A stretch of DNA of 33,475 nt, taken from the NCBI GenBank assembly GCA_022763385.1, contig JALEGQ010000224.1, forward strand, positions 1 to 33,475. Direction: 5' to 3'. Positions within the stretch are counted from its first letter, which is position 1, and the number at the start of each line of letters is the position of its first letter. The translations under genes were made by a program, and so were the position numbers. The notes below the pieces were generated by a model that saw only the letters and a program-made list of their open reading frames with translations, made no database searches and was not told the DNA's origin. This DNA is from a bacterium (GTDB taxonomy: Bacteria; Bdellovibrionota_C; UBA2361; RFPC01). This document shows positions 5,588-17,851 of the stretch, one piece after another.

Positions 5588-7213
5588 ATGACCGAAGAGA
5601 GAGAGAACGGAGAAGAAGAGGGTCACCTCGCGCTCCAGCAACTTGCCGAGACCCTCGGGCTGGAGTGGAGGGAGCGAATAGAGGATCCAGACCCACCCGA
5701 GCACCTCGTCGTCGGAGATTTTGACCGGATCGTCGGATCCTGGGCGAGACAACACGAAGTAATCCCGATTGCCGCAGAGAACGGTCATATCGTGGTTGCC
5801 ACCTCTGCTCCAAAGAACTCCGAAGCGCTCTCACAACTCAGTATCTGCTACGGAAAGCCGATCGAGATCGTGGTCTCTTCGCCGGAAGAGATCACCAAGG
5901 CGATCAACGCGATGCGGACCCGTCTGATGCGCGGAAAATCAAGCGACCTCGAAGATGACGGAGAAGCAGACGAGTCACTTGATGCCGCACTCAAGATCGA
6001 CGTGACCGATGCCGAGGATGATGACGCTCCGATCATGCGGTACGTCAACGCGATTATCTTTAAGGCGAGCTCCGAGCGTGCCTCTGATGTTCACATTGAA
6101 CCGTACGAAGAGGTCCTCAAGATCCGCTTTCGCATTGACGGGGTTCTCTACGACGTGGACACCCAGGATGATAGCCACCACGCAGCGATTATCTCTCGAG
6201 TTAAGGTGATGGCGGGATTAAATATCGCCGAGAAACGACTTCCCCAAGATGGTCGGATAGGTCTGAAGATCGCGGGGAACGACGTTGATATTCGGGTTTC
6301 TACGGTCCCCACCCAGTTCGGAGAACGGGTCGTCATGCGACTTCTCGATAAGTCGGGAACCGTTCTTGATATCTCACAGGTAGGGATTCGACAGAACAAC
6401 CTCGATGCCCTCAACCGCCTGATCCGAAAGCCCAACGGAATCTTCCTGCTCACCGGTCCTACCGGTTCTGGGAAAACGACCACCTTGTATTCGTGTTTAA
6501 CGGCGATTAACACTCCGGCGCTCAACATCCTGACAGTCGAAGACCCGATCGAGTACCAGGTTGATGGCGTGGGCCAGATGCAGGTAAACCCGAAGATCGA
6601 CTTTACCTTCGCCTCTGGGCTTCGTGCTATCCTCCGACAAGATCCTGATGTGGTGATGCTCGGAGAGATCAGAGATGTTGAAACCGCCGAGATCGCCATT
6701 CAGGCATCACTCACCGGTCACCTCGTGCTCTCAACCCTGCACACGAACGATGCTCCGGGTGCTGTTACCCGCCTCATCGATATGGGGATTGAACCCTTCC
6801 TCGTATCATCAAGCCTCCTCGCCGTGATGGGGCAACGGCTCGTCCGGAGACTCTGCCCCCACTGTAGAGAACAGTACGAACTCTCACCGGAAGAGATCTA
6901 CGAGCTCGGCCTTGAAGCGGTACAGCTCCCCTCTCGCCTCGCCTATCGCCCGGGAACGGCAGAGTGTGAAGCGTGTCAGATGACCCGCTACACCGGAAGA
7001 ACCGGGATTCACGAACTCCTCGTCATCGACGAAGCCGTGAGGAGTCTGATCCTGCAACGGGTTGACTCTTCCTCAATCCGAGCGGCTGCGATGGCAAATG
7101 GGTTTGAGCCACTCCGCCTCGACGGAGCGATGAAGGTTCTTCAGGGGGTGACCTCCGCAGAAGAGGTGATCAGAGCGACCCACGAAGAGGTCAGCCAGTC
7201 AGATATATCGTGA
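5588..7213 (+). CDS. gspE: Type II secretion system ATPase GspE
   Basis: GspE is the hexameric cytoplasmic ATPase that powers pseudopilus assembly through GspL and GspF. The 541-residue protein has an N1E-like domain (about 10-115) and then an acidic linker. The core has Walker A GPTGSGKT at 290-297, the Asp-box region around LTVEDPIEYQ, Walker B DVVMLGEIRD at 354-363, and the His box TGHLVLSTLHTNDA. Four Cys form the zinc-binding pair CPHC (423-426) and CEAC (460-463), as in T2SS and type IV pilus assembly ATPases. The ATG at 5588 sits one base after the gspD stop, so the two genes are probably translationally coupled. Association with gspC/D favours GspE over PilB. Confidence 0.97.
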   Translation: MTEERENGEEEGHLALQQLAETLGLEWRERIEDPDPPEHLVVGDFDRIVGSWARQHEVIPIAAENGHIVVATSAPKNSEALSQLSICYGKPIEIVVSSPEEITKAINAMRTRLMRGKSSDLEDDGEADESLDAALKIDVTDAEDDDAPIMRYVNAIIFKASSERASDVHIEPYEEVLKIRFRIDGVLYDVDTQDDSHHAAIISRVKVMAGLNIAEKRLPQDGRIGLKIAGNDVDIRVSTVPTQFGERVVMRLLDKSGTVLDISQVGIRQNNLDALNRLIRKPNGIFLLTGPTGSGKTTTLYSCLTAINTPALNILTVEDPIEYQVDGVGQMQVNPKIDFTFASGLRAILRQDPDVVMLGEIRDVETAEIAIQASLTGHLVLSTLHTNDAPGAVTRLIDMGIEPFLVSSSLLAVMGQRLVRRLCPHCREQYELSPEEIYELGLEAVQLPSRLAYRPGTAECEACQMTRYTGRTGIHELLVIDEAVRSLILQRVDSSSIRAAAMANGFEPLRLDGAMKVLQGVTSAEEVIRATHEEVSQSDIS

Positions 7214-8253
7214 AGAGAAGCGACATCGGCATGCAACGCGAAGAGAGGATGCACACCTTCGTCACCAGGGCGACGCTCGTAGTACTCATCTTTCTCGTGG
7301 TGCTCACCGTGTACTCGGCCATCCCGGCGAAACAACCCACACCGTGGCAGAACCGACTCTTCACCCCCACCCAACTCGCCATTCTTCAAGGCAAATACTT
7401 CCTCGTCGACTGTTGGCACCACCGAGTCTTGTGGTCCGATGAGCTCACCCGGGATCTCTCCGAATGGAAGGTCATCTCCGATCAGGTCATCGGGCCGCAC
7501 TCCATCGCGAGTGACGGTGAGATCTTTCTCGTGGACGATACGGAATCCTCCGCGGTCGTGGCTTATCGTTTTAAGAACGGAGCCTTTTTTGAAGTTCAAC
7601 GGTTTACGAATCTCGGCGTTCGGCCTCACCGAGTACGGTACGACCAGGAGTCAGAAGCGTTCTGGGTCGTCATGTCGAAGTCGCAAGAGATCGCAAAGAT
7701 CACACGAACGGACGGTCGGTATGAGGTGAGCTATACCAAGCACCTCCCCTTTCTGGAAGGAAAGTATACTCGTTCGTTTACGATACACGAAGACCTCATG
7801 TACTTCGTCTCGGGACCGGATGCCGTTATCGGTGTTCGATACCTCGATGACTCCTTTGAAGAGGAAGAGCGGTATCCCGTTCCTCCAGAGCTCGGGAGTA
7901 TGAATGACCTCTTTTTTTCCGGAGAGTACTGGTACCTCTCGGCCACTCCACAGAAACTTATTCGGGTACGAGAGCTGCAAGCCATTGGAGATCCGGAACA
8001 ATACGAAGACCTCTTTGAGAAGCTCCAACTCCGTGGAACGCCCTACTACTTTACCGCTGCCCATGGGCGGATCTATCTCCCGGAGATCACTGAGTACTCC
8101 CGCATTATCTCTTTTGTGGAGAACGGTGCAGAGATAGCCGACCTGCAGATTCACTTCGATTTCGGGCCACCAAACCGAAGCTCTCTTGAACGGAAGGCCG
8201 AGGGGTTTCAGAAACGGCTCTTTTCTCGCCAACCAAAGCCACCGCAGGAGTAA
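7210..8253 (+). CDS. Unrecognised membrane-anchored extracytoplasmic protein, possibly beta-propeller
   Basis: I do not recognise this 347-residue protein. The GTG at 7210 overlaps the gspE stop (GTGA), suggesting translational coupling; an ATG at 7231 is an alternative start. One hydrophobic segment at about 21-38 (ATLVVLIFLVVLTVYSAI) probably anchors it in the inner membrane with the rest in the periplasm. The remainder alternates short strands and turns with repeated aromatic blocks: FLVDCWHHRVLWSDELT, IFLVDDTESSAVVAYRF, FWVVMSKSQEIAKI, YFVSGPDAVIGVRYL, WYLSATPQKLIRV and IYLPEITEYSRIISF. Their spacing of roughly 45-60 residues suggests a propeller of six or so blades, as in NHL or SMP-30-like folds. 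This is inference from pattern only. Its place between gspE and pabBC suggests a periplasmic role linked to secretion. Confidence 0.7.
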   Translation: MKRSDIGMQREERMHTFVTRATLVVLIFLVVLTVYSAIPAKQPTPWQNRLFTPTQLAILQGKYFLVDCWHHRVLWSDELTRDLSEWKVISDQVIGPHSIASDGEIFLVDDTESSAVVAYRFKNGAFFEVQRFTNLGVRPHRVRYDQESEAFWVVMSKSQEIAKITRTDGRYEVSYTKHLPFLEGKYTRSFTIHEDLMYFVSGPDAVIGVRYLDDSFEEEERYPVPPELGSMNDLFFSGEYWYLSATPQKLIRVRELQAIGDPEQYEDLFEKLQLRGTPYYFTAAHGRIYLPEITEYSRIISFVENGAEIADLQIHFDFGPPNRSSLERKAEGFQKRLFSRQPKPPQE

Positions 8254-8260
8254 GAGCAGG

Positions 8261-10060
8261 ATGAAGAGACCTCCTGCCGAGCCACAGCGCTCTACTCCTC
8301 TGGCAGCTCTCTCCTCGGAGAACCAGTGGCTCGTCTACGAAGAGTGCGGGGAGATCATCACTACGGACCTGATCGGAGAGGTTCTTCCTGCTCTTCGAGC
8401 AGTAGAAGAACAGGTGAATCGAACGGAGCAGGAGGCCGTTGGATTTGTGAGCTATGAAGCGGCTTCGGCCTTTGATCCCGCCCACACCACCCAGCACAGA
8501 GATCACCGACTCCCGCTGCTCTGGTTTGGGATATACGAAAAACCTCAAGAGCTTCCGAAGGAGAATGATTCCGTTCCACCATTCCTCGACGAGGAGGATG
8601 GCACTCATGGAGTCCTTCCCGAAAAGTGGCAGCCGTCTCTCTCACAGGAAGAGTACGAACGCGCCATGGAATCGATTCATTCTCACCTCTCGCAAGGAGA
8701 CTCCTATCAGGTCAACTTTACCTTTCCCCTCTCGGCTTCCCTCTCCTGTTCACCGAGAACTCTCTTTGCACACCTCCTCCGCACCCAACGGCCTCGCTAC
8801 GGAACGTATCTCGAGACAGAGGAGTTTGTGGTGTGTAGCGCCTCACCAGAGCTTTTCTTTTCCATAAAGGACGGAGAGCTTCGTGCCCGTCCGATGAAGG
8901 GAACGGCTCCTCGAGCACCGACGACAGCACGGGACGAAGAAGTCCGACGTACGCTCTGCTCTTCCGAGAAAGAGCGAGCCGAAAATATCATGATCGTTGA
9001 TATGATTCGCAATGACATCTCGCGGATTGCAGAGCCAGGCACCGTTCAGGTCTCCTCCCTCTGTGAAACCGAACGCTACCCCTCACTGTGGCAGATGACC
9101 TCTACGGTTGAAGGAAGGAGCAATGCTCTCGTCAGTGAGGTCTTCCAGGCCCTTTTCCCATGTGCCTCCATTACCGGCGCACCGAAAGTAGAAACAATGA
9201 AGATCATCGCTAAGGAAGAACCGACGCCTCGGGGCATCTATACCGGGGCACTTGGGCGAATCGTCTCCGCTCGAGAAGCACTCTTTACCGTTCCGATCCG
9301 CACAGCGGTCTGTTATCCGAGAACCGGAGAGATCTCTTTCGGGGTGGGAAGTGGTGTTACCGCTGACTCCGTAAGCGCAGCAGAATACCAAGAGTGCGCG
9401 GTAAAAGCGTCAATCCTCTCTCCGAAGCCGAGCTTCTCACTCTTCGAAACGATACGGTGGAGTGCGGAGGAGGGTTTTTTCCTCCTCGAAGAACACCTCG
9501 AGCGACTCTCAGGCTCCGCTTCCTACTTTCATTTTCTCTTCTCTCGTCAGAGCGCGATAGAGCTTTTACATGGAGAGTTTTCTGCGAGCACACATAGCAC
9601 TGCTCGGGTTCGCCTCGAACTCGCACCGAATGGAGAGATGAAACTTACCGTTGCACCGGTTCCGGAGGCACTTCAGCACACCCCCCTTCGGCTCACAAAA
9701 AATCCGGTATCACGAAACGATCTCTTCCTCTTCCATAAAACGACGCACCGCGCCGTTTATGATGCAGCACGGGAAGAGTGTGAAGCCGGTGAAGAGCCGA
9801 TACTCTGGAACCGTGAGGGGGAGATTACCGAAACCGACCGAGCGAATATCGTTATCCGACGAGGTGACAAGCTTCTCACTCCCCACCAAGACTCAGGCCT
9901 CCTCAACGGAACGCTCCGCCGGAAGCTCCTCCGAGAAGGCACCATTACCGAAGCTCGCCTCACGAAAAAAGATCTCTTCTCCGCCTCAGAGATTCTCCTC
10001 ATCAATGCCCTCCGGGGATGGCGAAGGGGAATACTGGCGGATTTCCAAGGCTCTCTTTGA
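8261..10060 (+). CDS. pabBC: Bifunctional aminodeoxychorismate synthase component I / aminodeoxychorismate lyase (PabB-PabC fusion)
   Basis: This protein should convert chorismate to 4-amino-4-deoxychorismate and then release p-aminobenzoate for folate synthesis. The ATG at 8261 lies seven bases after the preceding stop, with GGAG upstream, and gives 599 residues. Residues 1-386 are the chorismate-binding PabB part: SYQVNFTF, ASPELFF, PMKGTAPR (Lys213 matches the PabB-specific lysine position), SSEKERAENIMIVDMIRND, SITGAPKVETMKII and GVGSGVTADS. Residues 390-599 resemble PabC: SLFETIRW, then FHKTTHRAVYDAAR with the likely PLP lysine at about 493, then ITETDRANIVIRRGDKLLTP and GLLNGTLRRKLL. 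No glutaminase component (PabA) is visible nearby. A folate gene inside a T2SS cluster is unusual; cotranscription looks likely from the spacing. Confidence 0.93.
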   Translation: MKRPPAEPQRSTPLAALSSENQWLVYEECGEIITTDLIGEVLPALRAVEEQVNRTEQEAVGFVSYEAASAFDPAHTTQHRDHRLPLLWFGIYEKPQELPKENDSVPPFLDEEDGTHGVLPEKWQPSLSQEEYERAMESIHSHLSQGDSYQVNFTFPLSASLSCSPRTLFAHLLRTQRPRYGTYLETEEFVVCSASPELFFSIKDGELRARPMKGTAPRAPTTARDEEVRRTLCSSEKERAENIMIVDMIRNDISRIAEPGTVQVSSLCETERYPSLWQMTSTVEGRSNALVSEVFQALFPCASITGAPKVETMKIIAKEEPTPRGIYTGALGRIVSAREALFTVPIRTAVCYPRTGEISFGVGSGVTADSVSAAEYQECAVKASILSPKPSFSLFETIRWSAEEGFFLLEEHLERLSGSASYFHFLFSRQSAIELLHGEFSASTHSTARVRLELAPNGEMKLTVAPVPEALQHTPLRLTKNPVSRNDLFLFHKTTHRAVYDAAREECEAGEEPILWNREGEITETDRANIVIRRGDKLLTPHQDSGLLNGTLRRKLLREGTITEARLTKKDLFSASEILLINALRGWRRGILADFQGSL

Positions 10061-10109
10061 ACCAAGGGAGTACCACCTCGTCACTTTCGAACGATACATC
10101 GAAATGAAA

Positions 10110-10138
10110 TTGCTGAGCATTCTCCTCTCATGTTATCG
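10110..10138 (+). promoter_or_regulatory. Candidate promoter of the toxin-antitoxin operon
   Basis: TTGCTG (10110-10115) and TTATCG (10133-10138) are separated by 17 bases, like a weak sigma-70 promoter. Transcription would start close to 10145, at or beside the antitoxin ATG at 10146. That would make a leaderless message, which fits the lack of a ribosome site before that ATG. The -10 match is poor, so this is tentative. Confidence 0.3.
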
Positions 10139-10145
10139 TTTCGGT

Positions 10146-10367
10146 ATGAGAAACAAGTTATTGGCAGAGGGGTTATCTCTTGCTCCGGCGGAAAGAATTA
10201 GGCTTGCACAGGACCTTTGGGATAGTGTTTCCGAAGTTCCCGTTCCCGAAGCTTTAACTGATATTCAGAGGCAAGAACTTGATCGCCGGATTGAAGCCAT
10301 CAAGACAAGACCTGATATCTCCATCCCCTGGCGCGATGTTTTGAAAGAGATTCGAGGACTGAAGTGA
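10146..10367 (+). CDS. Antitoxin of a type II toxin-antitoxin system (addiction-module, Unstab_antitox type)
   Basis: A 73-residue protein of the short addiction-module family (PF09720-like). The hallmark is LSLAPAERIRLAQDLWDSV at residues 10-28, followed by a helical region with LTDIQRQELDRRIEAI and a C-terminal IPWRDVLKEIRGLK; the family's Pro-Trp-x-x-Val/Leu segment is visible. Such antitoxins bind and neutralise ParE/RelE toxins and usually repress their own operon. The ATG at 10146 places the conserved block at the usual distance from the N-terminus; an ATG at 10104 would add a hydrophobic extension not expected here. The stop overlaps the toxin start (GTGA). The composition is more AT-rich, with more TTA/TTG/AGA codons than neighbouring genes, consistent with horizontal acquisition. 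Confidence 0.88.
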   Translation: MRNKLLAEGLSLAPAERIRLAQDLWDSVSEVPVPEALTDIQRQELDRRIEAIKTRPDISIPWRDVLKEIRGLK

Positions 10368-10678
10368 GCTTCAAAGTTCGCGTAGAGCCGGAGGCGCGAG
10401 CAGATTTAGTTGCTGCCTTTGATTGGTACGAGAGCCAACAAGAAGGCCTTGGATTAGAGCTATTAGCGTCGGCGGAAGCGACCTTCTCGCTTTTGGAGAG
10501 ATTTCCTGAGGCCTACTACGAAATATACGGCGATTTTCGAAGGGCTCCGATTCGTCGATTTCCATTTGCACTTTTCTATACCATAGAAGAAGAGTCAGTC
10601 CGAGTTATCGGAATCTTTCACTACCGCCGTGATCCAGATGGATGGAAGGAACGAATATCACACTTTCTTAAGAGGTAA
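10364..10678 (+). CDS. ParE/RelE-superfamily toxin
   Basis: A 104-residue protein of the ParE/RelE fold (PF05016-like). The N-terminus has the family pattern VRVEPEARADLVAAFDWYESQQEGLGLELLA broken into strand, helix and helix. The C-terminal sheet has RRAPIRRFPFALFYTIEEESVRVIGIFHYRRDPDGW, close to the ParE pattern ending in hhR-P-x-W. ParE members poison DNA gyrase and RelE members cleave mRNA on the ribosome; the sequence does not decide which applies, though the missing C-terminal catalytic Tyr/Arg arrangement of RelE and the R-DPDGW ending lean to ParE. It starts with GTG at 10364, overlapping the antitoxin stop by four bases, the usual antitoxin-first order. The pair looks intact. Confidence 0.88.
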   Translation: MSFKVRVEPEARADLVAAFDWYESQQEGLGLELLASAEATFSLLERFPEAYYEIYGDFRRAPIRRFPFALFYTIEEESVRVIGIFHYRRDPDGWKERISHFLKR

Positions 10679-10794
10679 GCTGCCGTTTCGTTTGCTCAGT
10701 CCCCAGAAAGGCCGCGATAACATCCGACTATAACGTTCTTCAAAAATTACGTAGCGATTGAAATACATCACTATCGGTATAGGGAACCACGAGG

Positions 10795-12258
10795 CTATTC
10801 TGGATTCAATCTCGAAAGGATCGGCCGGCTCAGATCTCTCGCAAGATCTACGAGCCGATCACTGAGCGACGGCTTTGGATTGATGGTCCGACGAATCTCT
10901 TGGAGGTCATTCCGATCGAACCGCCTCGCTGCGCTGCGCAACAGTCTTTGCTCGTATTGAGGACCGAAGTACTCTTTCAGCATATCGCCATACTCCACAA
11001 GAAGCGTCTTCATTGCATCCGCCGAAAGGTTATCGACTGCGCCATCAACACAGAGGTTCGTAACGGCGGACTTTCCCGCTTCGGTATCCTGGAGCTCCGG
11101 AAACGTCTCAAGAATGTCTAGCACTTTCTTCGGGTCTGAATCTGAAATCGTTTTGACTGCCGCCGTGAAGGATCGCTCAAAAGATGCTTCGAGCACCTCT
11201 TTCCCCTTGAGGGCGTGGTCGTATATGGCACCCACCACATCGTGAACAGCCGAATCATCAGAGAGCAGGGCTGCTGTCATTGATTCTTTGAAGACATCAA
11301 GCGGCTGAGTGCCTCTTTGCCGAGCGAGAAAGGCCTGCTGGAGTATCGGCCCAGCTTTGGTAAAGAGTTCAGCCATATCGCCATCTGCCCGAGTTGTCCT
11401 CCCCGCAACGATAGCTGCCAATTTTGCCTCCAACTGCTCTGCGACGGCGCTATGGAAGTGCCGATCGTTCATGGTCAAAGACGTATCAAACCCTGCTGCA
11501 AGCGGTCGACCATGTGCGGCTTGAGCGATCCAGTAGACCGCTCGATCTTCGGCATTTGGCCTAACATGATCCACAACCGGCCACTCTCCTGCTCGAAGCA
11601 TGCCGTGGAGTGCGGCCTCGTATCGCTGCCGAGGGTGCCCTTCGCCCTGTTCGAGATCCTCTTTTCGCGTTTCCATCAGCGCGTTTCGCAGTTCACTATC
11701 ATCAGCCCGCAGGACGTTCACTTCACCCCGGAGAAACTTCGGCCACTGGCCGTTTAATGTATCCCGAGTTGCGCGAGCGCAGATGGGGTCCTTCAATGCA
11801 GCGATCAACTGCAAAGCGACCTCTCCTCCCTCCACCGTTTGGCGGCCATACACGAGCCGCTGCGCAAGACCGGTCACGGAGTGCTCGTAGGCATCGGCTA
11901 CCGCATCATCTCCTGCTGCAAACTCAGTAAGCTCCTTTCGCAGTGATACCGCTTTTTCCAAATCGCCCTTCGCAAGCGCCAGCACATAGTACCCGTAAGT
12001 TTGATGTCTATAATCTTTTGACTGCTCAAAGGTCTTACCGATCCGCCCTACCGCCTTTTTCGCTCGTGTCATGAGATCTTCGTCCCCTCGATAGGAGAGA
12101 AGGGTGTCAACCCTTCGTGAAGACTTCTTGTGAGCCTCGTGAACATCCTCGCTGAACACCTGACCAATGGTCTTATCTGCATCACCAGAGGGAGAAAGGC
12201 GTGCAACAGCGCTAATATGAGACTGTATTCCTTGATTGACTTGAGGATTAGGCATCAT
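10795..12258 (-). CDS. Unrecognised 487-residue alpha-helical protein
   Basis: I do not recognise this protein. It lacks a signal peptide, membrane helices and obvious catalytic motifs, and has only two Cys (in ICARAT and NLCVDG). It looks almost entirely helical, with repeated amphipathic segments such as MTRAKKAVGRIGKTF, YYVLALAKGDLEKAVSLRKEL, AELFTKAGPILQQAFLARQ and VLDILETFPELQDTEAGKSAV, which suggests an alpha-solenoid (HEAT- or TPR-like) scaffold. The C-terminus (SLSDRLVDLARDLSRPILSRL) is a basic amphipathic helix. The ATG at 12258 has GGAG upstream; a second ATG follows directly. It runs antisense to its neighbours and, with the toxin-antitoxin pair, separates gspC-D-E from gspF-N. The 260-base gap upstream is the largest in the window and probably holds its promoter, but no clear one can be assigned. 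Confidence 0.75.
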   Translation of the reverse strand: MMPNPQVNQGIQSHISAVARLSPSGDADKTIGQVFSEDVHEAHKKSSRRVDTLLSYRGDEDLMTRAKKAVGRIGKTFEQSKDYRHQTYGYYVLALAKGDLEKAVSLRKELTEFAAGDDAVADAYEHSVTGLAQRLVYGRQTVEGGEVALQLIAALKDPICARATRDTLNGQWPKFLRGEVNVLRADDSELRNALMETRKEDLEQGEGHPRQRYEAALHGMLRAGEWPVVDHVRPNAEDRAVYWIAQAAHGRPLAAGFDTSLTMNDRHFHSAVAEQLEAKLAAIVAGRTTRADGDMAELFTKAGPILQQAFLARQRGTQPLDVFKESMTAALLSDDSAVHDVVGAIYDHALKGKEVLEASFERSFTAAVKTISDSDPKKVLDILETFPELQDTEAGKSAVTNLCVDGAVDNLSADAMKTLLVEYGDMLKEYFGPQYEQRLLRSAARRFDRNDLQEIRRTINPKPSLSDRLVDLARDLSRPILSRLNPE

Positions 12259-12506
12259 ACCAACAACTCCAAAAAAAACAGGTAGACCTCGATCACCTTG
12301 ATATTCACGAGCTCAGATGAGATGTCGCATAGTTTTTCGTGAGCGACCTGAAAGCTTGGCTAACACCTCGAATATGGTGGTCTTTTATGCAATCACCGTA
12401 TATACAGCGGCGCCTCGTTCCCAACTCTCAGAGGTCTAGCATCTCTTGCTGGACAGAGAGGAAATGGCCGCTGGTGATCTCGTCGGAAGCTTCATAAACT
12501 GAGGCG

Positions 12507-12512
12507 AGGAGG
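12507..12512 (+). promoter_or_regulatory. Strong ribosome binding site of gspF
   Basis: AGGAGG lies six bases before the gspF ATG at 12519. This is the best Shine-Dalgarno match in the window and fixes the gspF start. It also supports gspF as the first gene of the second T2SS operon, read from a promoter somewhere in 12259-12506. Confidence 0.8.
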
Positions 12513-12518
12513 GCTCAT

Positions 12519-13745
12519 ATGCCGGTATACGAATACCTTGCCATTAACGGGTCGGGGCGAGAGGTGAAGGGACGGGTTGATGCCGAGAACGAGCGGGTGG
12601 CTCGTCAGCGGCTCCGGAAGGAACAGCTCTTTCCGACCTCTCTGAAAGAGACGAGCTCTTCTCCTGAAGATCGCACTCAGAATGTGATGAAGTACCTGAA
12701 GTCCGACCGGGTGGGACTGAAGGAGCTCACCCTGATGACTCGGCAGTTCGCCACCCTCGTGACCGCTGGGCTGCCCCTCGTGAGCGCCCTGCAGGCGCTC
12801 GGAGAACAATCAGACTCTCAGGTGATGCAGCGAGTACTCGTACTCGTGCGGGAACAGGTCCAGGAGGGGGAGTCGCTCGCAAAGAGTCTCCAGGCCCATC
12901 CAAAGACCTTTCCCCGACTCTATATCAATCTCGTTGCCGCCGGTGAGGCCTCGGGAACCCTCGATGAGGTGCTCGAAAAGCTCGCCGAATACCTCGAAGG
13001 GCAGCTCGCCCTCCGCGGGAAGGTGTTCTCTGCCCTCACCTATCCGGTGGTGATGCTCGTGGTGTGCGGACTCGTTATCCTCGGGTTGATGATCGGGGTG
13101 ATCCCGCGAATCGTTGAGATCTTCGTCAAGCAGGGGCTCGCCCTCCCCCTGCCGACCCAGATCGTGATCGCGAGCTCTGACTTCCTGATCGGCTACTGGT
13201 GGCTCCTTCTCCTCGTTGGAATAGCCCTCGCCGTTGCCGCGGCACGGTACTACGCCCTTCCCCACGGACGCGCCGTCGTTGATCGACTCCTCCTCAAGCT
13301 GCCCCTCGTGGGCTCGGTGTATATCAAGGTCATCACTGCGCGAATTGCAAGCACCCTCTCGGCCCTCCTCGGGAGCGGTGTTGAGCTCTTGAAGGCGCTG
13401 GAGATCACGAAGAACATCATCGGCAATGTGCATATCGTGAACCTTCTCGATGAGGCCCGAGAGGGAGTTCGGGAGGGGAAGAACCTGAGCCGAGAGATTA
13501 TGCGGCACAATCTGCTTCCCACGATGTTGAGCCGGATGATCGCGATCGGAGAGAAGAGCGGCGACCTCGAGAATATGCTCGAGAAGGCCGCAAAGACCTA
13601 TGATAACGAAGTGAGCTCTACCCTTGATGGACTCACCTCCCTCCTGGAACCGCTCCTCATGGTGACCGTTGGGATGATCGTGTTATTGATCGTGGTCTCC
13701 GTGCTCCTCCCGATGACGGAGCTGATCAATGTGGTCTCCATCTGA
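12519..13745 (+). CDS. gspF: Type II secretion system inner-membrane protein GspF
   Basis: GspF is the polytopic platform protein thought to couple GspE action to pseudopilin extrusion. The 408-residue length is typical. The N-terminus (MPVYEYLAINGSGREVKG) is the standard start of the family. Two T2SSF domains are present: residues about 65-195 (LMTRQFATLVTAGLPLVSAL, then VAAGEASGTLDEVLEKLAEYLE) and about 265-395 (ARIASTLSALLGSGVELLKAL, then MIAIGEKSGDLENMLEKAA). Membrane helices are visible at about 170-195, 220-242 and 375-400. It begins the second T2SS gene block, separated from gspE by pabBC, the toxin-antitoxin pair and the orphan minus-strand gene. Confidence 0.97.
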   Translation: MPVYEYLAINGSGREVKGRVDAENERVARQRLRKEQLFPTSLKETSSSPEDRTQNVMKYLKSDRVGLKELTLMTRQFATLVTAGLPLVSALQALGEQSDSQVMQRVLVLVREQVQEGESLAKSLQAHPKTFPRLYINLVAAGEASGTLDEVLEKLAEYLEGQLALRGKVFSALTYPVVMLVVCGLVILGLMIGVIPRIVEIFVKQGLALPLPTQIVIASSDFLIGYWWLLLLVGIALAVAAARYYALPHGRAVVDRLLLKLPLVGSVYIKVITARIASTLSALLGSGVELLKALEITKNIIGNVHIVNLLDEAREGVREGKNLSREIMRHNLLPTMLSRMIAIGEKSGDLENMLEKAAKTYDNEVSSTLDGLTSLLEPLLMVTVGMIVLLIVVSVLLPMTELINVVSI

Positions 13746-14964: not shown

Positions 14965-15467
14965 CGGACCGATCGAGAGCACATTCCGACACCGCAGGGT
15001 TTACCTTTCTTGAGGTCACGATCGCACTGGCGATCCTCGGTGGTGCGCTCGTGGTGATCCTCGGCCTGCAATCGGCACTCGTTGAGCGGACGGTGGTAGA
15101 ACGACAACAACGGGAGGCGATGGTGTTTGCCCGTGAGATCTTCAGTGCAGTCGAAGCCCGGGAGTCTTCGGGCGATCCTCTTGATACCGGGAGCTACGAG
15201 GGAACCCCCCAAGACATCCTCGGAGGACTCCTCCCCGGAAGCGAGGTGGAAGAAGATCGCTCACTGCAACCGATCGCCGAGTACCGCACACAGCTCTTCG
15301 TCGAGTACTGGGGAATTCCCAGTGTCGATGAGCGGGCCATGAAACGGGTAGAGCTCCTCATCACCTGGGGAGAACGACAACCAGAGTCGCTCCAACTCGT
15401 GCTCTTTATTCCGTTTGATGAGGATGAGCTCTCAAACCAGAACGAAGAGGACGATGCTGATGAGTAA
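14961..15467 (+). CDS. gspI: Minor pseudopilin GspI
   Basis: A 168-residue pseudopilin whose ATG at 14961 overlaps the gspH stop by four bases. The leader MTDRSRAHSDTAG is cut before FTFLEVTIALAILGGALVVIL, again with Glu at +5; FxxLEVxIALAIL is typical of GspI. The downstream region contains ERQQREAMVFAREI and a beta-rich segment with QLFVEYWGIPSVDERAMKRVELLITWG. The very acidic C-terminus (DEDELSNQNEEDDADE) is a notable addition. GspI is the scaffold of the I-J-K tip complex in characterised systems. It overlaps gspJ by eight bases. Confidence 0.86.
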   Translation: MTDRSRAHSDTAGFTFLEVTIALAILGGALVVILGLQSALVERTVVERQQREAMVFAREIFSAVEARESSGDPLDTGSYEGTPQDILGGLLPGSEVEEDRSLQPIAEYRTQLFVEYWGIPSVDERAMKRVELLITWGERQPESLQLVLFIPFDEDELSNQNEEDDADE

Positions 15468-16197
15468 GACTCCACCAGCTTCCCCACCGCTCGAAGACCG
15501 TGGCTTCACCCTGATCGAGGTACTGCTCGCCATCGGCATCCTCTCGGTGATGGTCACCCTCTCCTACTCCTCTATCGAGAGCATCCTCCGTTCGAAAAAG
15601 GCGATCGAGAATGATCAGGAGATCGAACGGCTGGAGCTCGTCCTCATGCGTCGACTCACCCGAGAGTTCCAGCTCGCCTATCCGAATCTTCCTCGACTCC
15701 CTCCGGCAGACAACCTCAAGCAACGTTTTTCATCCAGGGAAAATCTGCTCGGGAAGCAGGGCACGATGCCAAATGGCCAACCAGGAGACTCCGTAACCTT
15801 TGTGGCGATCAGTGCTGGGCAACAGTTTCTGGAAGATCGCAGGAGCAACAGTGGGCTCGTACAGATCACCTACTCCCTCCGGGAAGACCCAGAGAGAGCG
15901 CCCCAAGAAGAGTACCCCGTCTACTCACTGATTCGTGAGGAGGTCCCGTACAAGCGGCCGTATGAACAGGCGTATGCGGAAGCCCTCCGTTTTCCCCTGC
16001 TCGATTTTGCGGAAGGGCTGCAGATCGAGTACTTTGACCTCCGAGAAGGGGTCTGGACGAGGGAATGGGGCGACGAAGAGCGGAGAGACCTCCCGGCACT
16101 CCTCCGATTCACTCTCTCGGTACGGAGTCCAAACGGAAAGCCCGCTCGGATACGAGCCACCGTGCCGATGCGATGGGTGAGAGGGAGGCGACGGTAG
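15460..16197 (+). CDS. gspJ: Minor pseudopilin GspJ
   Basis: A 245-residue pseudopilin. The ATG at 15460 is preferred over that at 15454 because AAGAGG then lies about nine bases upstream. The leader MSKTPPASPPLEDRG precedes FTLIEVLLAIGILSVMVTLSYSS with Glu at +5. The globular part has RRLTREFQLAYPNLPRL and VTFVAISAGQQFL, and ends with RFTLSVRSPNGKPARIRATVPM, like the GspJ family. In other systems GspJ works with GspI and GspK at the pseudopilus tip; here no gspK follows. The 106 bases to gspL hold no gene; a short GCTCG-CAT-CGAGC hairpin lies at 16258-16270. Confidence 0.86.
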   Translation: MSKTPPASPPLEDRGFTLIEVLLAIGILSVMVTLSYSSIESILRSKKAIENDQEIERLELVLMRRLTREFQLAYPNLPRLPPADNLKQRFSSRENLLGKQGTMPNGQPGDSVTFVAISAGQQFLEDRRSNSGLVQITYSLREDPERAPQEEYPVYSLIREEVPYKRPYEQAYAEALRFPLLDFAEGLQIEYFDLREGVWTREWGDEERRDLPALLRFTLSVRSPNGKPARIRATVPMRWVRGRRR

Positions 16198-16303
16198 AAG
16201 ACTACGAAAGCAAGAATTGGCTGCTGGCATCTTTCGGAGCAGCACAGTATCATCAAAGCTCGCATCGAGCATGACGATCTGAAACCCCTGACACCTCACC
16301 TTC

Positions 16304-17851
16304 ATGGAAGCAGAATCAATACTCAGCATTGACGCCACCCACCCCGTTCTCCAGGTAGTCCTCACCCAAGGAACAGGCACTGATATCGTTGTTCAAGAAG
16401 AGTTTGCGCTTGAGGCATCGACGTGGTGGCAGCGGTGGTTCGGTAGCGGAACGCTCCCTGACAATTCTCGAGAGAATCAAGAAGAAGCCCCACCGAGCGA
16501 GCAAGGTGGAGGAGGCGAAGTCCAGGAAGAAGATCGAGAAGGTGGACTCTTTCCAATTAAACAACTCCTCTTGCGACTTCCCGGGAAAGCGTGGGATGAG
16601 TCGCTGATTATTCTCCCCCCCCACCAGGCGATCAACCTCTCACTGAAGCTTCCCTTCTCTCACCGCTCGAGCCTCAATCGGATAGCTCCCCTCGAAGCGC
16701 AGGACAGACTCCCCTTTCCGGTGTCCCCGTTCCACTGTCACGCACGACCAGTGCGAAAGCTCTCTTCTGAACTCTTTGACGTTCAGATGGACCTGTATCC
16801 CGAGGAACTGATCAGTGAGCTCCTCCGAACCTGCAAGCAGTGGAAGTTTGAACCCTCGATTCTCACCATACCAGCCGCGTTGGCAGAAACGTGTCACGGA
16901 CTCTATCCGAAGTACGTCGCTCAGAGTGCCCTCTTTGTGTTTTCCGGCGAAACGCACTACTCCATCGCCGCGCTGGTTGAGGGCCAATCGGTTGCCTATT
17001 TTACCCTCCCGAAAACAGAACCATCCGCAGACTTTGTTGGCAAGAGTCTCCTCAATAGCTGGATCGCTTCCGTAGAAGAACGCCTCGAACACCCGCTGGA
17101 GCGGATCTATTTTATCGGAGAAGAGATGAACTTCCAGGAGTGGAACCGAGAACAGCTGATGCGGCCCTCGGAGGTGCTCTCCTATGAAGATATCCTCCCA
17201 ACAAGCTCCTTCCTCCACCTTGAAGACAATTTTCGCTCAGGCCTAGCAACGCTTGGAGCAACTGCTGTCACCAAAGAAGAAACCGCTACGTTGACGCCGA
17301 ACTACCGAACGGGGAGATACCTCTTTCGTCCGGAGTTGAGAAACCTCGCTGAAGGGATCGGACCTCTCATCAAACCCGCGATCCTCCTCATACTCGTTTT
17401 TGCTGCGCTTATCCCTCTCCAATACTTTGCTCGAGAACAACGAATTGCCTCGCTCCATGACGGACTCCGTGCTGCCGTGCGACAGGCCTTTCCCGATACG
17501 GTGATTCCGGAGGGGAGAGAGCTCTTCGCCGTTCGGCAGAAGCTCTCGCAATCGCAGGAAACCCTCCAACAGCTGGGGACCGGGGGAAAGATCTCTCCCG
17601 ACAAGGAGCTGGCGCTCCTTCTTGACCGACTGAAGAAATTTAAAAGCCTCAAACTCCGGCGGGTGAATATTTTGCGGGAGAAAACCGTACTCGAAGGGAC
17701 CACGGCCTCTTATACTGATGCGGAGCAGATCGAAGGCGCGATGAAGAAGGGAAGAGTCTATTGCGATGTCTCTCTTGATACTGGAGGGGGTGGTCGGATG
17801 GGGCAGCAGAACTTCGATCTTCTCCTGAAGAAGGAGTGTGGCCTCTCATGA
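16304..17851 (+). CDS. gspL: Type II secretion system protein GspL
   Basis: GspL links the ATPase GspE to the inner-membrane platform. The 515-residue product begins like the actin-like cytoplasmic domain of GspL/PilM (MEAESILSIDATHPVLQVVL). It then has an acidic Gly/Glu-rich insert (about 50-80) and the PilM-like pattern DESLIILPPHQAINLSLKLPF. A single membrane helix lies at about 355-373 (LIKPAILLILVFAALIPL), followed by a periplasmic ferredoxin-like domain (DKELALLLDRLKKF to the end). Overall identity to known GspL is low, so the call depends on architecture plus position between gspJ and gspM. No good ribosome site precedes the ATG. The last bases overlap gspM (ATGA). Confidence 0.8.
   Translation: MEAESILSIDATHPVLQVVLTQGTGTDIVVQEEFALEASTWWQRWFGSGTLPDNSRENQEEAPPSEQGGGGEVQEEDREGGLFPIKQLLLRLPGKAWDESLIILPPHQAINLSLKLPFSHRSSLNRIAPLEAQDRLPFPVSPFHCHARPVRKLSSELFDVQMDLYPEELISELLRTCKQWKFEPSILTIPAALAETCHGLYPKYVAQSALFVFSGETHYSIAALVEGQSVAYFTLPKTEPSADFVGKSLLNSWIASVEERLEHPLERIYFIGEEMNFQEWNREQLMRPSEVLSYEDILPTSSFLHLEDNFRSGLATLGATAVTKEETATLTPNYRTGRYLFRPELRNLAEGIGPLIKPAILLILVFAALIPLQYFAREQRIASLHDGLRAAVRQAFPDTVIPEGRELFAVRQKLSQSQETLQQLGTGGKISPDKELALLLDRLKKFKSLKLRRVNILREKTVLEGTTASYTDAEQIEGAMKKGRVYCDVSLDTGGGGRMGQQNFDLLLKKECGLS

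Follow-up and report, generated by a model that had tools for sequence, protein, structure and literature searches.

Can a gene that begins within the last codons of gspE, and reads on in the same direction, be taken to encode part of the T2SS? The window, which is the whole stretch of 33,475 nucleotides that was analysed, contains a T2SS locus that raises this question. Between gspE and gspF lies a gene for a predicted propeller protein, followed by several other genes (Table 1). We examined whether this protein belongs to the secretion machinery or only shares its location. The explanation that we favor, with somewhat better than even confidence, is that the protein is an anchored, NHL-like propeller which may act on an envelope ligand, and that its gene is an accessory passenger lying within an interrupted T2SS operon.

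The ORF at 7210-8253 is a genuine protein-coding gene. A tblastn search with the propeller protein matched an independent sequence at E = 3e-37, and 26 aligned homologues cover the propeller domain, so the gene prediction is certain. The family profile (27 members, with the window protein as one row) matched the window protein at E = 6.9e-95.

We found that the start of the gene overlaps the gspE stop codon (GTG 7210 lies within GTGA), and that the ATG of pabBC at 8261 lies 7 nt downstream of its end, both as noted in a previous, sequence-only reading of this DNA. The exact four-base overlap with gspE hinges on GTG 7210 as the start. ATG 7231 and ATG 7249 are in-frame alternatives, and no Shine-Dalgarno-like sequence was seen before GTG 7210. 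The sequence-only reading had also placed the gene in the secretion operon. This holds for its position, adjoining gspE on the same strand, and does not hold beyond position. The gene probably rides on the upstream gspC-E transcript.

Table 1. Features of the gspE-gspF region (positions are those of the window)
Feature	Position	Strand	Remarks
gspE	5588..7213	+	left flank of the insertion; C-terminus intact
Propeller gene	7210..8253	+	347 aa from GTG 7210, stop TAA 8251-8253; predicted membrane-anchored six-bladed beta-propeller of an unnamed NHL-like family
Inserted block	7214..12518		5,305 bp between gspE and gspF, in this genome only
Hydrophobic anchor or signal segment	7249..7330	+	residues about 14-40 (hydropathy scan); helix 4-36 in the model
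Codons 97-99	7498..7506	+	His97 invariant; start of innermost strand, blade 2; putative pocket
Codons 138-140	7621..7629	+	Arg138 nearly invariant, Pro139 and His140 invariant; blade 3; putative pocket
Codons 186-190	7765..7779	+	Tyr186, Arg188, Ser189 and Phe190 invariant; blade 4; putative pocket
Codons 278-279	8041..8046	+	Pro278 and Tyr279 invariant; blade 6; putative pocket
pabBC fusion	8261..10060	+	chorismate-binding and class IV aminotransferase; in the insertion
Unstab_antitox-family antitoxin (PF09720)	10147..10367	+	in the insertion; start approximate
ParE-family toxin	10364..10678	+	in the insertion
487-aa ORF	10795..12258	-	no family match; in the insertion, against the direction of the T2SS operon, between gspE and gspF
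gspF	12519..13745	+	right flank of the insertion

A 5.3-kb block within the operon

The T2SS genes of the window are arranged in the order TPR protein, gspC, gspD, gspE, the inserted block, gspF, G, H, I, J, a weak GspL, a weak GspM, and GspN. gspK was not recognised between gspJ and the weak GspL-like ORF at 16304-17851 (stretch 15415-17851).

We compared relatives by fetching gspE together with its flanks. In 28 of them, the two congeners among them, gspF is the next gene after gspE and lies no more than about 60 nt away. The operons of the two congeners (GspE 84-85% and 81% identical) are fully collinear in the order TPR-C-D-E-F-G-H-I-J and continuous from gspE to gspF. Since the C-terminus of gspE is intact in the window, the block is placed exactly between the two genes. 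The propeller gene would have come, or have been moved, to this site within the accessory block, and such an arrival would make its adjacency to gspE incidental. At the block junctions we found no element ends, and the search for a target-site duplication gave only a 9-base chance repeat.

One ORF of the block is on the opposite strand, so gspF and the genes after it probably need a promoter of their own. The intergenic stretch 12259-12518 presumably holds this new promoter; no sigma-70-type consensus was found there. The opposite-strand ORF matched no Pfam family, and the 42 other genomes searched around the lineage contained no relative of it. Fusions of pabB and pabC have a patchy distribution in the phylum. 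The best match within the phylum is 45% identical, and both congeners lack a fusion.

The G+C content of the propeller gene (0.54, and 0.64 at third positions) is the same as that of the gsp genes, which indicates that the gene is well adapted and was not acquired recently, a point that weighs against the favored explanation. The Unstab_antitox/ParE pair (10147-10678) is lower in G+C (about 0.48 versus about 0.55 around it), so the block may have been assembled in more than one step.

Predicted fold, anchor and pocket

From input alignments only four sequences deep, AlphaFold2 modeled the window protein as an all-beta propeller (pLDDT 75.6, pTM 0.69) and an Eisenbergiella homologue as a clearer, six-bladed propeller (pLDDT 86.3, pTM 0.81). 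Propellers dominated the Foldseek matches in the PDB and took the top places; the matches were generic (6-15% identical). Sequence searches of the PDB with the propeller protein gave no significant match. The sequence-only reading had suspected a propeller and suggested structure prediction and a structure search as a check, and the predicted ring of four-stranded blades is such a fold.

We found a single hydrophobic segment at the N-terminus. In a hydropathy scan the mean hydropathy peaked at 2.45 around residues ~16-40 and was at most 0.77 elsewhere. This agrees with the single membrane anchor proposed previously, as nothing comparable occurs further on. The N-termini of the homologues are TM-like or lipoprotein-like, with several of the latter kind, and the window protein carries the N-terminal membrane or lipid anchor by which membership in the Lachnospiraceae propeller family was judged. 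Together, the structure prediction and the anchors in the homologues support the earlier description of an extracytoplasmic beta-propeller. The protein would have a six-bladed, NHL-like propeller outside the cytoplasm, preceded by a single N-terminal membrane anchor (or signal helix).

The alignment of the 27-member family (the window protein and 26 homologues) contains 16 invariant columns, including those of His97, His140, Arg188 and Tyr279. His97, Arg138/Pro139/His140, Arg188/Ser189 and Pro278/Tyr279 are located in predicted blades 2, 3, 4 and 6, at or beside the point where the first, innermost strand begins. Propellers build axial pockets at the starts of their innermost strands. The presence of invariant residues at these positions in four blades points to a ligand-binding or catalytic pocket. 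We suggest that His97, Arg138-His140, Arg188 and Tyr279 form a pocket on the propeller axis. This predicted pocket could bind, and might chemically modify, a small cell-envelope ligand, for example a fragment of peptidoglycan or of a surface glycan. The window protein lacks the blade-6 'TEHR' motif that is common in the family; the invariant residues are kept.

Homologues and alternative explanations

Homologues were present in 22 of 299 Lachnospiraceae genomes and are 27-34% identical to the window protein. A sample of the Lachnospiraceae phylum contained them in 2 of 398 genomes, both of which were also in the Lachnospiraceae set. A search of the window's own phylum with the profile built from all 27 sequences, the window protein included (alignment A4), found the propeller protein in none of 45 other genomes, and 383 genomes from around the lineage and across the domain held no homologue besides the window genome. 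Single-sequence searches of the same phylum, of plasmids and of genome contigs gave no match, and scans of viral contigs gave no relatives.

Two candidates were rejected. A weak match in G038 contained internal stops and was gone when the profile was used, and we attribute it to chance. A homologue in MT835945.1, a record labelled 'Bacteriophage sp.', was judged to lie in chromosomal DNA of Lachnospiraceae type and not to be a phage gene, because the record encodes LtaS-like, YfhO, MscL, QueH-like and polysaccharide deacetylase proteins.

The neighborhoods of the homologues in Lachnospiraceae are varied, contain no T2SS genes, and have no family in common with the window proteins. By raw occurrence, frequent neighbors are VanY, polysaccharide deacetylase, amidase, M19 dipeptidase, acyltransferase and sulfatase/YfhO. 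The anchor and these envelope enzymes make the binding or modification of an envelope ligand the most likely role, and we propose this specific role tentatively. A secretin was absent from 23 of the 24 homologue-carrying Lachnospiraceae genomes. The secretin in the remaining genome (G250:C28:4146-4646) is unexpected there and is possibly contamination.

In the family tree the branch of the window protein is 3.94 changes per site long. This length, with the G+C match to the gsp genes, shows that the gene did not pass recently from any of the Lachnospiraceae sampled. The branch is too long for the tree to indicate a donor.

The sequence-only reading had proposed a lineage-specific periplasmic partner, a chaperone for substrates or an assembly factor. 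These data bear on whether this T2SS recruited a member of the propeller family to such a role, as a protein anchored in the inner membrane and made together with GspE. We consider such a recruitment highly unlikely. It would account for the tight same-strand junction with gspE, with no promoter-like site in between, for a base composition matching the gsp genes, and for the very long branch, along which the window protein could have changed function. However, the gene is absent from both congeners and from every other genome of the phylum that was searched, although 28 relatives keep gspE-gspF intact. The homologues all lie away from T2SS genes, mostly in bacteria without secretins; the sequence-only reading had itself named homologues distant from T2SS genes in most genomes as an observation that would refute it. 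In addition, the window protein keeps the residues that are invariant in the family, a toxin-antitoxin pair and the opposite-strand ORF interrupt the operon, and the gene downstream of the propeller gene encodes a folate enzyme. Searches with T2SS family profiles of Pfam and NCBIfam gave no match. We conclude that the propeller protein is very probably not a T2SS component.

Alternatively, the propeller could be a substrate of the T2SS, with its N-terminal helix serving as a cleaved signal before periplasmic folding and secretion. A hydrophobic segment with a short linker after it, a predicted extracytoplasmic fold and the location in a T2SS locus are what such a substrate would have. But the Lachnospiraceae homologues have TM-like or lipoprotein-like N-termini and occur mostly in genomes without secretins, and neither congener has the gene, which makes this explanation very improbable. 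Similarly, there is little chance that a surface propeller of Lachnospiraceae type entered the T2SS operon of a Gram-negative bacterium and became a new periplasmic partner of that system, anchored in the inner membrane, or its dedicated substrate. Least likely of all, despite the 7-nt spacing, the common strand and the shared insertion, is that the propeller gene and pabBC form one functional unit, since the propeller is extracytoplasmic whereas PabBC is a folate enzyme of the cytoplasm, other pabBC fusions in the phylum are in genomes without the propeller, and no PabB or PabC was found among the tightly linked Lachnospiraceae neighbors scanned.

We therefore return to the anchored propeller as an accessory passenger. 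This explanation removes one candidate T2SS component and shows that tight linkage to gspE can be misleading. The anchored propellers form a family that occurs in about 7% of Lachnospiraceae genomes, has an invariant putative pocket but no dedicated Pfam or NCBIfam model, and is worth naming; our searches of the literature turned up neither such a family nor a propeller in a T2SS. By splitting a T2SS operon, the block, with its toxin-antitoxin pair and its opposite-strand gene, offers a natural experiment, on a small scale, in how operons break up.

Comparison with known systems

The propeller gene resembles those of T2SS components in being located between gspE and gspF. It differs in that its product matches no T2SS model and in that every other T2SS operon we examined lacks the gene.

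BamB, a periplasmic propeller lipoprotein of the BAM complex, is likewise an anchored extracytoplasmic propeller and was among the Foldseek matches. However, the TM-score was about 0.42 with a large rmsd and 8-13% identity, and there is no sequence relation. BamB has eight blades.

Judged by sequence, NHL repeats (PF01436) appear to be the nearest Pfam family. The window protein scored 18.6 bits, below the curated cut-off of 20; 11 of the 27 family members had weak matches at E up to 0.01 (best E 8.5e-7). The six predicted four-stranded blades and the mostly propeller matches in the PDB are also consistent with the superfamily of NHL-repeat and six-bladed propellers.

The window protein belongs to the Lachnospiraceae family. 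It is set apart by its 27-34% identity, its very long branch, the missing 'TEHR', a diderm genome and a place within a T2SS operon, but it aligns with the family over the whole propeller domain and shares the N-terminal anchor and all 16 invariant columns.
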